A stretch of DNA of 64,000 nucleotides, from contig PACZ01000012.1 of the NCBI GenBank assembly GCA_002700305.1, positions 1-64,000 of the forward strand, written 5' to 3'. A model generated the notes under the pieces. The model ran no database searches. It was not told where the DNA came from and worked only from the letters and a program-made list of their open reading frames with translations. Each line of letters starts with the position of its first letter. The first letter of the stretch is position 1. Shown piece by piece: positions 21,559 to 64,000 of this stretch. The translations under genes were made by a program, and so were the position numbers. This stretch comes from Hyphomonas sp. Its GTDB lineage: Bacteria; Pseudomonadota; Alphaproteobacteria; Caulobacterales; Hyphomonadaceae.

Positions 21559-21595
21559 ATCGCGCAGGCGCCCGCCGCCTGCGCGATTTCCTTTT
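21559..21595 (+). terminator. Strong terminator after the peroxiredoxin gene
   Basis: ATCGCGCAGGCG pairs perfectly with CGCCTGCGCGAT across a 5-nt loop (CCCGC), followed by TTCCTTTT. It abuts the stop of the convergent minus-strand gene and may serve both directions. Confidence 0.85.
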
Positions 21596-57005: not shown

Positions 57006-58893
<1,888 letters not shown>

Positions 58894-60576: not shown

Positions 60577-61280
60577 ATGACCAATAACCCGTTCCATAAC
60601 TTCAAAACCTCGCCCGAGATCATCCAGCTTGCAGTCATGATGTATGTCCGATTTTCGCTGTCATTGAGGAATGTTGAAGACCTGCTCCATGAACGCGGCA
60701 TCGACATTTGCCACGAAACGGTCCGTCACTGGGGCGATCTGTTCGGGAATTACTTCGCGCACAAGATCTGCAAACGTCGATCGGAGGGTATGAAGCAAAG
60801 TCCGCAGTGGCAATGGCACCTGGACGAGGTCTTTGTAAAGATCCGTGGTCGGCTCATTACCTTTGGCGAGCGGTTGATCATGAGGGAGAGGTGCTGGAGT
60901 CGTTCGTCACGAAGACTCGTGACAAGGCTTCAGCATAGAAATTTATGAGAGAAGCCATGAAACGCTATGGTAATCCCAAGGTGGTCGTGACGGATAAATG
61001 CCCTTCATATCGGGCGGCCATGAAAGTGATCGGGAGCGAGAGGTGTCAGGAGACCGGCCGGCACCTGAACAATCGCGCCGAAAACTCACACTTGCCATTC
61101 CGACGAAGAGAACGCGCCATGTCCCGTTTCCGGCGCATGCGAAGTCTCCAGAAGTTTGCTTCAATCCATTCGTCTGTTTACAATCACTTCAACCATCAAA
61201 GAAATATCGAGAGCAGGGCCAGGTTCAAATCGTTACGCGACGCCGCTCTTCTCGAATGGCGGGAACTGATCGCTGCTTGA
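60577..61280 (+). pseudogene. IS6-family transposase, broken by a frameshift and a stop
   Basis: The start MTNNPFHNFKTSPEIIQLAV and LRNVEDLLHERGIDICHETV are typical of IS6/IS26-like transposases, with DDE residues HLDEVFVKIRG and VVTDKCPSYR and a C-terminal Glu region (TGRHLNNRAENSH). Near 60859 one T is missing (the peptide should read RLIYLWRAVDHEGEVLESF), then an in-frame TAG at about 60939 replaces a leucine codon; the frame reopens at 60945. It cannot make a full protein unless both are bypassed. Confidence 0.88.
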
Positions 61281-61282
61281 GA

Positions 61283-61334
61283 CCTGCTTGTCCCCGAAAA
61301 TCGGAGACTGGTTCGAGTTAGTCCGACACCACCG
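61283..61334 (+). repeat. IS6-type downstream repeat (copy 3)
   Basis: CCCCGAAAATCGGAGACTGG then TTCGAGTTAGTCCGACACC immediately after the transposase stop. Same orientation as copies 1 and 2. Confidence 0.75.
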
Positions 61335-61555
61335 CTTTTTGGAATGTGATAGGCCCAAAGTGCCTGCAATGGGGGTCTGCGCAAGCTTGCCAGCGATCAG
61401 TTCTGAACAATCTTAGATCGTATTCAAGAAGAGTTTCTATTGAAGAAACTGCCAATAAAACAACCTAAAAATGGAAATTGTGGTGAATTCCATTCCAATC
61501 ATTGCGCGGTTTTAATCATGATCCTAATGTCGCCAGGTTCAATTGGGGTTGTTTC

Positions 61556-62284
61556 ATGCGCGACTATGATGGCTCGGCTGTTCTTGAGGCAATCCGCGCG
61601 GTCCAGGCGACGCAGGCTGTCGATGAAACGATTGCTGTCCTGTCGGGTTTTATCGAATCTTATGGGTTCGAGCGGATCTTTCTTGGCCAGCTTGTGAACC
61701 CGGCAAATGTACCACTCAGGGAAATTCTCTATGTGTCCGACTGGCCAGACGAGCTCAAGGAGCATCGCCGGAGCCAGATGGCGATCCTGCATGACCCGAT
61801 TGCAATCTGTGCCCTGAGATCCAAGAGGCCCTTTAGCTGGGCTGAAGCTCGTGAGTATGCCTCCCGAGTGGGGAAAATGGTCGTCGACATGGTCCACGAC
61901 TATGGCATCACTGATGGCATTATGTTCCCTATGCACGCCCTACATAGTGTTTCCGGTGGCGTCTCACTTGGTGGAGGCAACAAGCTTGATCTCTCGCCCA
62001 CGCATATCAAGGAACTCGAGATCGTTTGCCAGACGGTCTATTATCACCTGGAAGAAATGCTGGGGCCTTTCCCGTACCAGAAGGTTGCCGAGCTGACGTA
62101 CAGAGAAACTGAATGTGTCCAGTTTGCCGCGGCCGGCAAGTCGAACTGGGAAATCGCACAGATCCTCGGCATCCAGGAAGATACGGTCAAGAAGACGCTC
62201 CGGCGGGCCAGTAACAAACTTGAGACAGTGAACCGGACACATCTGGTGGCGACGGCGATCGCGAAAAGCCAGATTTTTCCCTGA
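61556..62284 (+). CDS. luxR: LuxR-family quorum-sensing regulator
   Basis: About 242 residues from ATG 61556. Autoinducer-binding domain about 10-165 (FIESYGFERIFLGQLVN, FSWAEAREYASR, GITDGIMFPMHAL), then a LuxR-type HTH about 175-240 (LTYRETECVQFAAAGKSNWEIAQILGIQEDTVKKTLRRASNKL). It binds an acyl-homoserine lactone and controls genes, presumably including luxI immediately downstream. The 270 nt upstream are AT-rich, starting at the IS boundary, and hold its promoter region. Confidence 0.93.
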   Translation: MRDYDGSAVLEAIRAVQATQAVDETIAVLSGFIESYGFERIFLGQLVNPANVPLREILYVSDWPDELKEHRRSQMAILHDPIAICALRSKRPFSWAEAREYASRVGKMVVDMVHDYGITDGIMFPMHALHSVSGGVSLGGGNKLDLSPTHIKELEIVCQTVYYHLEEMLGPFPYQKVAELTYRETECVQFAAAGKSNWEIAQILGIQEDTVKKTLRRASNKLETVNRTHLVATAIAKSQIFP

Positions 62285-62288
62285 TCAA

Positions 62289-62304
62289 GTCCCCGAAAGG
62301 GGAC
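62289..62304 (+). promoter_or_regulatory. Palindrome GTCCCC-GAAA-GGGGAC between luxR and luxI
   Basis: A perfect 6-bp inverted repeat with a GAAA spacer, 16 bp long, 4 nt after the luxR stop. As DNA it resembles the lux-box class of dyads (CCCC-N4-GGGG type) bound by LuxR proteins; as RNA it is a stem with a GNRA tetraloop. Confidence 0.6.
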
Positions 62305-62320
62305 ATTGCCCTGCGGCAAT
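62305..62320 (+). promoter_or_regulatory. Palindrome ATTGCC-CTGC-GGCAAT between luxR and luxI
   Basis: A second perfect 6-bp inverted repeat with a 4-nt spacer directly abutting the first. Two dyads of equal size side by side may form a double LuxR operator or two stacked RNA stems. Confidence 0.6.
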
Positions 62321-62325
62321 ACTGG

Positions 62326-62362
62326 AACATGATCGCTCCTGAACCACAGGAGCGATCATGTT
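62326..62362 (+). promoter_or_regulatory. 16-bp perfect hairpin covering the luxI ribosome-binding site and start codon
   Basis: AACATGATCGCTCCTG (62326-62341), loop AACCA, CAGGAGCGATCATGTT (62347-62362). The 3' arm contains the Shine-Dalgarno AGGAG (62348-62352) and the luxI ATG (62358-62360). If the transcript folds here, translation initiation should be strongly blocked. Confidence 0.88.
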
Positions 62363-63008
62363 TAGGACGATCACACCAGAGAACCGGGACGAATACCAGG
62401 ACTTGCTCGATGATATGCACCGGATGCGGTACCGCATCGTGGTCGGTGAGTGGGGCTGGGAAATTCCGGGAATTCCCGAAGGTTATGACAAGGACCAGTT
62501 CGACACCGACAATACCGTTTACATCGTCGTCAGAAACGAGGTTGGTGAGGTCGTCGCGACCTCCCGTATGAACCCCACCACTCAGCCCCATATGCTGAGC
62601 GACCTGTTTGCTGATTATTGCGACCTGCAGCCCTATCCCGTCGGAACAGATGTCTGGGAATGCTCGCGTTTCGTCACCGACCGTTCCCTGTTGGCCGACC
62701 CGGTTGAGGATTTCCGGATCCGCTGCCGGCTGGGGATCGGGTTGACGGTGTTCTGTCTTGATAAGGGCATCAATCGCCTGAGCTGGCTCACTCATCAGAA
62801 ATTCTACAATCTCGTCCAGCGTGTCTGGAAAACCGAACCATTGGGACTGCCGCACCGGGAGGGCGACGACTGGGCTTGGATCCCAGCGGTGTCCCGGATC
62901 GACCAAGCAACGCTCGACCGGCAGATGGACCGTTTTCGCAATGCGGAAGAGATTGTTGCTCAGTATATGGCACCCAAACGCCGGGCAGGTGGGGGGAGAG
63001 TCGCATGA
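62358..63008 (+). CDS. luxI: LuxI-family acyl-homoserine-lactone synthase
   Basis: A 216-residue autoinducer synthase. The family core residues are all found at the positions of V. fischeri LuxI: Arg24, Trp34, Asp46 and Asp49 (in DKDQFD), Arg70, Phe84, Glu101, Arg104 (in WECSRF); the usual Phe28 is Val. It makes an acyl-homoserine lactone from S-adenosylmethionine and an acyl donor. Its RBS and start are in a hairpin, and its stop overlaps the next gene by 4 nt. Confidence 0.95.
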   Translation: MFRTITPENRDEYQDLLDDMHRMRYRIVVGEWGWEIPGIPEGYDKDQFDTDNTVYIVVRNEVGEVVATSRMNPTTQPHMLSDLFADYCDLQPYPVGTDVWECSRFVTDRSLLADPVEDFRIRCRLGIGLTVFCLDKGINRLSWLTHQKFYNLVQRVWKTEPLGLPHREGDDWAWIPAVSRIDQATLDRQMDRFRNAEEIVAQYMAPKRRAGGGRVA

Positions 63009-64000
63009 CCTGTAAATCGTCTGAACAAATAACTCCGGCGGACCGGGAAGTTTTCGAGCGCGATGGCGTTGTCTGCCTGCGAGGTGTGCTGAGCGGAAAG
63101 GAAGTCCGTCATCTGCGCAATGCGGTCGCACGCCAAATGGCAGGGCTCCGGAATTCGACGACAGGTTATGACTTCGAAGAGCTCGCAAAACAGGTCTGGG
63201 ATCCGGACCGGCCTATCGATATGGGCGCGGCCGAGCGTTTCGACATGAAGGCCCTGAAGGAAGTGGTCCGCAGTGATGAAACTGCCCGGCCGCTTCTTGA
63301 GGAGGACCCGTCCGACGAGGAAGGTCTTTTCTTTTACGATGTTGCGGCGTGGAAGTCGGACAGAGGCGTTCGAGAGGTGGCGTTCGATTCGGGGTTGCCG
63401 GAAATCGCCAGTGAATTGCTGGATGCTCGCTACCTCAATTTCTGGGAGGACACGACCTTCGTGAAGGCGCCACATACGCGACAGAAAACGGCCTTCCATC
63501 AGGACCTCGCCTATTTCCAGATCGAAGGCGGGCAATGCGTGGTTGTCTGGATCCCGCTCGACCCAGCGACACACGAGAGCGGAGTAATGCAGTATGTCCG
63601 AGGCTCTCACAGATGGGGAGAGACTTATGCGCCGAACCCGTTCATCTCGCAGACGCCATTCCGGTCGTCGGCTGAACAGAAGTGTCCTGACATCGAGTCT
63701 AATCCGGAGCAGTACGATATTGTGTCGTTCGATGTACAGCCCGGGGACGTGATCATCCATCACGTCATGACCATACATGGGGCAGGCGGGAACCGATCTG
63801 ACCAGTGGCGGCGGGCAGTTTCGTTCCGTTACTGCGGGGACGAGGTGCGCTATCTCGACCGCAAAGGGGCCATCCCACAGGTGGGGGTAGCGCGCGACCT
63901 GGAGGATGGTGACCGGCTGTTTTCAGCTGACTATCCGGTCGTGTGGCCGAAGCCCTGGCCGGGACTGAGCCTTGCGGATGCTTATGACGTTCTGGGTCCG
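63005..64000 (+). CDS. Phytanoyl-CoA dioxygenase (PhyH) family protein, luxI-coupled (partial)
   Basis: 332 residues are visible and the frame runs off the window. An ATG inside the luxI stop gives an ATGA overlap. Double-stranded beta-helix residues: HQD (His165, Asp167) in KTAFHQDLAYFQ, distal His258 in HVMTIHGAGGN and Arg269/270 for 2-oxoglutarate. PhyH enzymes hydroxylate acyl-CoAs or other small molecules using Fe(II) and 2-oxoglutarate. Coupled translation with luxI suggests it modifies the signal or its acyl precursor; I recall similar luxI-phyH pairs being described in sphingomonads but cannot check. Confidence 0.9.
   Translation, partial: MTCKSSEQITPADREVFERDGVVCLRGVLSGKEVRHLRNAVARQMAGLRNSTTGYDFEELAKQVWDPDRPIDMGAAERFDMKALKEVVRSDETARPLLEEDPSDEEGLFFYDVAAWKSDRGVREVAFDSGLPEIASELLDARYLNFWEDTTFVKAPHTRQKTAFHQDLAYFQIEGGQCVVVWIPLDPATHESGVMQYVRGSHRWGETYAPNPFISQTPFRSSAEQKCPDIESNPEQYDIVSFDVQPGDVIIHHVMTIHGAGGNRSDQWRRAVSFRYCGDEVRYLDRKGAIPQVGVARDLEDGDRLFSADYPVVWPKPWPGLSLADAYDVLGP

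Follow-up and report, generated by a model that had tools for sequence, protein, structure and literature searches.

The window, that is, the whole 64,000-nucleotide stretch of Hyphomonas DNA considered here, contains a tandem pair of quorum-sensing genes on its plus strand. A luxR homologue, encoding an AHL receptor and activator, is found at 61556..62284 (Pfam Autoind_bind, 2.9e-21; GerE, 2.3e-14) and is followed at 62358..63008 by a homologue of luxI, which encodes the AHL synthase (Autoind_synth, 1.7e-20). The next gene on the same strand is of the phytanoyl-CoA dioxygenase type (PhyH, 4.3e-34). It extends from 63005 to the end of the window at 64000, and its start overlaps the luxI stop as ATGA (63005-63008); its translation may be coupled to that of luxI, with the same control applying to both. 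Just upstream of luxR, at 60577-61280, lie two overlapping open reading frames, the first without a Pfam match and the second with an IS240-type DDE transposase domain, which together look like a frameshifted insertion-sequence remnant. Farther upstream, the minus strand carries a long open reading frame (57442-58848) that resembles one for an ATP synthase beta-type subunit. A second luxR-luxI locus is also present in the same genome (L022, G000 contig C36:14024-14656), where the luxI is 79% identical.

The hairpin at the luxI start and its relatives

The start of luxI is embedded in a perfect hairpin, as the original prediction described it. The two 16-nt arms, at 62326..62341 and 62347..62362 on the plus strand, form 16 of 16 possible pairs (100% complementary) around a loop of 5 nt. 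The 3' arm contains both the Shine-Dalgarno (SD) sequence AGGAG (62348-62352) and the luxI ATG (62358-62360), and the 5' arm constitutes the anti-SD and anti-start strand. Folded alone, the hairpin has a free energy of -27.0 kcal/mol. Within the region 62260-62420 the stem is extended by a seventeenth pair (G-U), and the minimum free energy of the region is -64.3 kcal/mol against -37.6 +- 4.0 for its shuffles (z -6.7, 0/200). With loops of 3-15 nt allowed, this is the longest perfect hairpin in the 64-kb window, and the 151-nt region 62270-62420 matches nothing in its own genome apart from itself and its own hairpin reversed. The sole other perfect hairpin in the window with arms of at least 10 nt is a 12-bp GC-rich stem at 21559-21587, followed by a T-rich stretch, which is probably an intrinsic terminator. 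A small plus-strand hairpin, TTGCC-ctgc-GGCAA, precedes the luxI stem at 62306..62319 and is absent, by eye, from relatives.

The luxI stem does not resemble an intrinsic terminator of luxR, as a GC stem followed by a T-run is not seen and the 3' arm is followed by TAGGACGATC. Nor does it match a known family of RNA thermometers: a search of 61000-64000 against Rfam gave no family at E up to 5. In the ROSE and fourU thermometers the SD is likewise held in a stem, but those stems are weak and imperfect, whereas the stem in the window is perfect and is predicted to be missing from luxI's own mRNA. Melting of a perfect -27 kcal/mol stem over the growth range is unlikely.

The three luxI matches with names come from Hyphomonas sp. 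CY54-11-8, H. chukchiensis, and a Hyphomonas MAG. Within the genus, a luxI match was found in 16 of the 42 genomes searched. A luxR match lies directly upstream of luxI in all 23 genus loci examined, of which 19 have a distinct upstream sequence; L003, L004, L005, and L023 were dropped before counting because their upstream sequences equal those of L007, L010, L020, and L014, respectively; L026 and L027, weak or partial luxI matches, were also dropped. The exact 16-bp stem is not seen in the other 18 distinct loci, and parts of L003-L005 (2700-3100) hold no inverted repeat of 12 nt or longer, so the idea of a conserved 16-bp stem was rejected. What recurs in homologous loci is pairing of the SD, and only to this extent did the expectation of conserved pairing hold. 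In a genome of the same species (L008) the stem is CTCCTG-aact-CAGGAG, and the same short CTCCTG-N4-CAGGAG form is found in L007. The arms that pair with the SD differ from one genus locus to another, as in TCTCCTG/CAGGAGA, TTCTTCT/AGAAGAA, and ATCCTCC/GGAGGAT, the last of which is the SD stem of L022.

The perfection of the window's stem may be a mutational by-product: in a shorter quasi-palindrome, template switching would have used the 5' arm to overwrite the 3' arm, with only short pairing, if any, under selection. The short stems of L007 and L008 are of the kind that such a process would start from. Moreover, the stretch between the upstream dyad described below and the ATG is 3 nt shorter in the window than in L007-L009, and the 5' arm looks much like the L025 sequence around the -10 element (GGAACATGATC in both). 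A similar design is seen in L150 (G414), a distant tandem luxR-luxI locus with the stem CATAGTCAGGCTCC-aactgc-GGAGCCTGACTATG, which comprises 14 pairs including the start codon and stands beside imperfect versions of itself in the relatives L143 and L148. One-step copying of the 5' arm into the 3' arm would give the window's long stem, and L150 looks like a second case. This origin, which we consider a tentative but substantial possibility, accounts for the length of the stem but not for the recurrent pairing; it is compatible with the start-site gate proposed below, and the odds of the two overlap.

A predicted LuxR-dependent promoter within the 5' arm

The lux box has been described as an 18-22 bp palindromic element upstream of luxI (PMC3907830). 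A predicted lux box, GTCCCC-GAAA-GGGGAC, directly follows luxR at 62289..62304. Its centre lies 61.5 bp before the luxI ATG, the same distance as is given for the centre of the inverted repeat upstream of the start codon of Mesorhizobium japonicum I1 (PMC10470506). It has two arms of 6 nt, separated by 4 nt and flanked by an outer A-T pair, and occupies the same place in all 19 distinct genus loci. Symmetry of the arms is complete in 13 of these loci, with 4 or 5 of the 6 pairs kept in the remaining 6, and L022 has its own symmetric variant, GCCCCC-GATC-GGGGGC. In the genome of the window the exact pattern CAAGYCCCCN4GGGGRCAT occurs at two places, here and on another contig, both between luxR and luxI. 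An exact search for the dyad gave matches in 2 of 385 genomes of the class; the 3 kb around the second hit (L073) contain neither a luxI nor a luxR match, and we regard this hit as chance. In Ruegeria KLH11 the sequence upstream of ssaI reportedly does not form an inverted repeat (PMC3907830), and the dyad is thus not universal.

When the genus loci are aligned without gaps on the dyad centre, a -10 block stands out at +32..+37. Its second base is A and its sixth T in 17 of the 19 loci, while the same pattern is found in at most 4 of 19 at other offsets from 13 to 55; in the two exceptions, L017 and L022, the xAxxxT hexamer appears by eye to be shifted one base further. In the window the predicted -10 element of a LuxR-dependent luxI promoter is CATGAT, at 62328..62333 on the plus strand. 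Since the distance from the dyad to the ATG varies from 61 to 69 nt among loci, it is the dyad to which the fixed register of the -10 element is tied. This is the arrangement expected of an activator site at about -43 together with a -10 element.

A transcription start is accordingly predicted 7 nt past the -10 element, at 62340 on the plus strand with an uncertainty of several nucleotides, which would give luxI a leader of about 18 nt. By sequence, the 5' arm contains the -10 element and has the predicted start among its last bases, so that luxI's own mRNA is predicted to lack nearly all of the 5' arm and would be without the hairpin. The two forms of RNA would differ at the initiation region, with the predicted probability of being unpaired rising from 0.00 in the long RNA to 0.54 in the short RNA for the SD, and from 0.00 to 0.76 for the AUG. 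The supposition that so long a stem should hide the initiation region agrees with this prediction for the long RNA. Folding around the luxI start, suggested at the outset as a check, gives the strong structure reported above. A start downstream of 62341, named there as the circumstance that would count against a role of the hairpin in the luxI message, is very nearly what the predicted position of about 62340 amounts to.

The hairpin dyad might instead be a DNA operator, either a second LuxR site or the site of another dimer, placed over the promoter and start codon. In favour of this, the palindrome is perfect and overlaps the -10 element, and in Rhodopseudomonas palustris GJ-22 two 'lux box-like' inverted repeats are described at -76 and -35 from the rpaI ATG (PMC10305029). 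However, the lux box is a separate and better conserved dyad, and neither a fixed spacing of half-sites nor a conserved sequence is seen at 62326-62362 and its counterparts: terminal loops are anywhere between 3 and 13 nt long in the 77 simple SD hairpins found among 84 distinct tandem loci, and the arms diverge. Loop lengths that vary in this way favour RNA over a protein site of fixed spacing. The suggestion that the dyad binds a protein as DNA is, on these grounds, very unlikely indeed.

Pairing of the SD across luxI genes

Sequestration of the SD was assessed by comparing its probability of being unpaired with that obtained when only the DNA upstream of it is shuffled. In the 19 genus loci this value is 0.199 against 0.368 +- 0.039 (0/300 shuffles), although a clear excess of pairing is not seen at L010, L015, and L016. 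A first wider set of 27 tandem luxI genes gives 0.173 against 0.359 (z -5.0), and a second of 38 tandem loci, folded by the same rule, gives 0.234 against 0.361 (z -4.5), with 14 of the 38 falling in the lowest tenth of their own shuffles. The second set holds three tandem (L115, L122, L129) and nine non-tandem loci from outside the class, and the duplicates L112 and L118 were left out of it but retained on pooling. For the pooled 85 luxI genes downstream of luxR the SD is unpaired at 0.206 against 0.363 (z -9.2), where a rule set the start codons and SDs of the remote loci, of which some, such as the SD of L151, are probably wrong. Grouping the pooled tandem loci by LuxI protein (55% identity) leaves 49 clusters with z -5.8, or 48 with z -5.6 once Hyphomonas is removed.

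Other starts behave differently. For 46 rule-picked open reading frames of the window, a set of long frames that includes doubtful ones and from which luxI is absent, the values are 0.401 and 0.402 (z -0.03). For 43 frames besides luxI that passed a codon-position G+C filter they are 0.451 and 0.429 (z +0.91), the rule having placed the luxR start elsewhere than 61556. A further 80 starts, those of luxR in these tandem loci as picked by rule, give 0.481 against 0.460 (z +1.16).

These controls bear on the notion that SD pairing is an accident of base composition, with pyrimidine-rich promoter DNA lying beside a purine-rich SD. The notion draws on the genus loci, which still pair well after their upstream and SD parts are swapped (0.256 against a native 0.194); the swap test confined to the genus is modest (84 and 41 of 5000). 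Against it stand the dinucleotide shuffles, the 43 filtered window genes, the 80 luxR starts, and the swap among 65 distinct tandem loci, which weakens coupling from -10.9 to -6.3 kcal/mol (0/5000 permutations) and so indicates that pairing is locus-specific; the swap test does not control for G+C, whereas the shuffles do. An accident of this sort is thus quite unlikely.

At luxI genes without a tandem luxR the effect is weaker. The first set showed none (17 loci, z -0.04), but in the second, 27 such loci gave z -2.55 with 7 of 27 in the lowest tenth. The pooled 45 loci stand at 0.281 against 0.343 (z -2.4), or z -2.8 for 32 clusters, and their swap test is also positive (43 loci, -8.1 against -5.0 kcal/mol, 0/5000). 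The proposition that only tandem luxI genes have such hairpins was weakened by the second set, and is retained just as a difference in strength between the two classes (Mann-Whitney 1.7e-4 over 130 loci, 0.025 by clusters). Sequestration of the SD is an effect of luxI that is stronger in tandem loci and present beyond them.

The position of the SD's partner relative to the predicted start was determined by setting the start at dyad centre +44, a value fixed on the genus and then applied to remote loci. The comparison of long and short RNAs covers 51 loci, comprising all 19 of the genus and 32 selected from 65 distinct remote tandem loci because their dyad, 57-82 nt ahead of the ATG, has at least 6 of 7 pairs. 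When shuffling is confined to the DNA before the predicted start, SD openness goes up from 0.203 to 0.365 for the genus (0/150) and from 0.263 to 0.340 for the remote loci (1/150), whereas shuffling only the leader raises it less, to 0.245 and 0.291, respectively (2/150 each). The upstream shuffle alone removes most of the effect, and the SD partner hence lies mainly upstream of the predicted start. In the genus, mean SD pairing is correspondingly 0.59 upstream of the start and 0.13 within the leader; in the remote loci the two values are 0.45 and 0.23. In RNA that begins at the predicted start the SD is open at 0.569 (genus) and 0.476 (remote), close to the 0.574 and 0.517 obtained after leader shuffles. 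The short RNA is more open than the long in 17 of 19 genus and 24 of 32 remote loci, part of which is expected from truncation alone, and is not freer in the remaining 2 and 8. Exceptions include L010, where the partner is mostly in the leader, L020, where it is downstream, and several remote loci with a partner in the leader, such as L080, L087, L097, L099, L132, and L155.

The original prediction placed the hairpin within the normal luxI leader, with a start upstream of 62326, and had it opened by a small RNA, a protein, or ribosomes terminating on luxR; temperature is a further candidate. Recurrence of SD pairing in homologues accords with an opener acting in trans, as does the weaker effect at luxI genes without a tandem luxR, and in Sinorhizobium meliloti the small RNA RcsR1 is described as binding the sinI mRNA near its SD (PMC5977203). 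Yet the -10 element inside the 5' arm holds its register with the dyad, the SD partner is mainly upstream of the predicted start, and that start would leave luxI's own mRNA with no hairpin to open. A perfect -27 kcal/mol stem would also be hard to melt, and no Rfam family matched in the region searched. As for ribosomes finishing luxR, they halt at the stop codon at 62282-62284, with 41 nt still between them and the stem, and would not be expected to open it. An opener in trans is therefore unlikely.

A proposed start-site gate on luxI translation

We propose, with a probability of about two in three, that the luxI hairpin is a transcription-start gate on luxI translation, similar to that of phage T4 gene e. 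Any RNA that enters from upstream, whether by read-through from luxR or from a stray start before about 62326, would contain both arms, and its SD and AUG would be locked in the -27 kcal/mol stem, preventing translation of luxI. When LuxR and its signal occupy the predicted lux box at 62289-62304, RNA polymerase would use the -10 element within the 5' arm and start at about 62340, giving an RNA that lacks the 5' arm, has a free SD, and allows LuxI to be made. The outcome would be a luxI that is insulated from luxR transcription and has its basal leak cut. The gate would consist in which transcript is made, with a trans-acting opener unnecessary. Post-transcriptional gating, as originally envisaged, thus survives in that the start region is hidden in the long RNA, but the gate would be set by choice of transcript, given the predicted start. 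The hairpin, the SD pairing, the spacing of dyad and -10 element, the recurrence in relatives, and the position of the partner mainly upstream of the predicted start are computed features of these loci; from them we infer the luxI start site, the binding of LuxR to the dyad, and both the existence and the silence of a read-through RNA.

The closest known parallels are the leader hairpins of the T4 genes e (lysozyme), soc, 49, and I-TevI, in which the SD and AUG are likewise sequestered in an RNA helix (PMC3014915). For gene e, longer early transcripts are described as folding an inhibitory structure that lowers lysozyme synthesis about 100-fold, and late promoters within the DNA of the 5' strand as yielding short, well translated transcripts (PMC3014915). 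In contrast to T4, the gene in the window is a bacterial AHL synthase gene under a predicted LuxR-activated promoter with feedback, and both silencing and start are predicted from the sequence. The tandem arrangement of luxR and luxI with an inverted repeat conforms to the LuxR/LuxI autoinduction loop, which is usually described in terms of transcriptional control (PMC3907830); an SD hairpin spanning the promoter would add a layer to it. The S. meliloti sinI system, involving RNase E and RcsR1, is similar in that a luxI-type mRNA is controlled around its SD (PMC5977203), but there a trans-acting RNA and an RNase are at work, while here a cis hairpin is predicted in the longer RNA only. The lux box, the SD hairpin, and the T4-type gate are known separately, and their combination at luxI is unreported in the literature searched. 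No published SD hairpin spanning a luxI promoter was found there, which is weak evidence of absence because subscription journals are thinly covered.

Across the Alphaproteobacteria, tandem luxR-luxI loci may share a hard-wired gate of this kind, in which the sequence surrounding the -10 element and start of the LuxR-driven promoter also encodes the strand that masks the SD. The synthase would then be made only from quorum-activated RNA. The hairpin sequences would differ from clade to clade and be occasionally 'perfected', as in the window and L150. We regard this generalization as standing just short of even odds. Some loci sit awkwardly with it. L153, L161, and L162, which lack a tandem luxR, have SD hairpins although the upstream gene seems to be divergent; luxR read-through would then be impossible there, and the gate model does not explain them. 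L095, L096, and L099 have by eye a terminator-like stem and T-rich stretch after luxR and nonetheless keep an SD hairpin, the partner being mostly before the predicted start in the first two and mostly after it in L099. A broader formulation, in which luxI stays silent on any RNA begun before the quorum-controlled start, would account for some of these misfits.

Quorum thresholds depend on basal leak of the synthase. If the gate is real, the mechanism known from phage T4 would be extended into bacterial signalling, and the reading of RNA-seq data at luxR-luxI loci would change, as luxI reads need not equal LuxI protein. The gate could also explain certain inverted repeats close to luxI start codons which were interpreted as lux boxes. 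If it is widespread, a cis element that silences luxR read-through RNA would add to LuxR/LuxI circuits a layer of leak control that has gone unrecognised.
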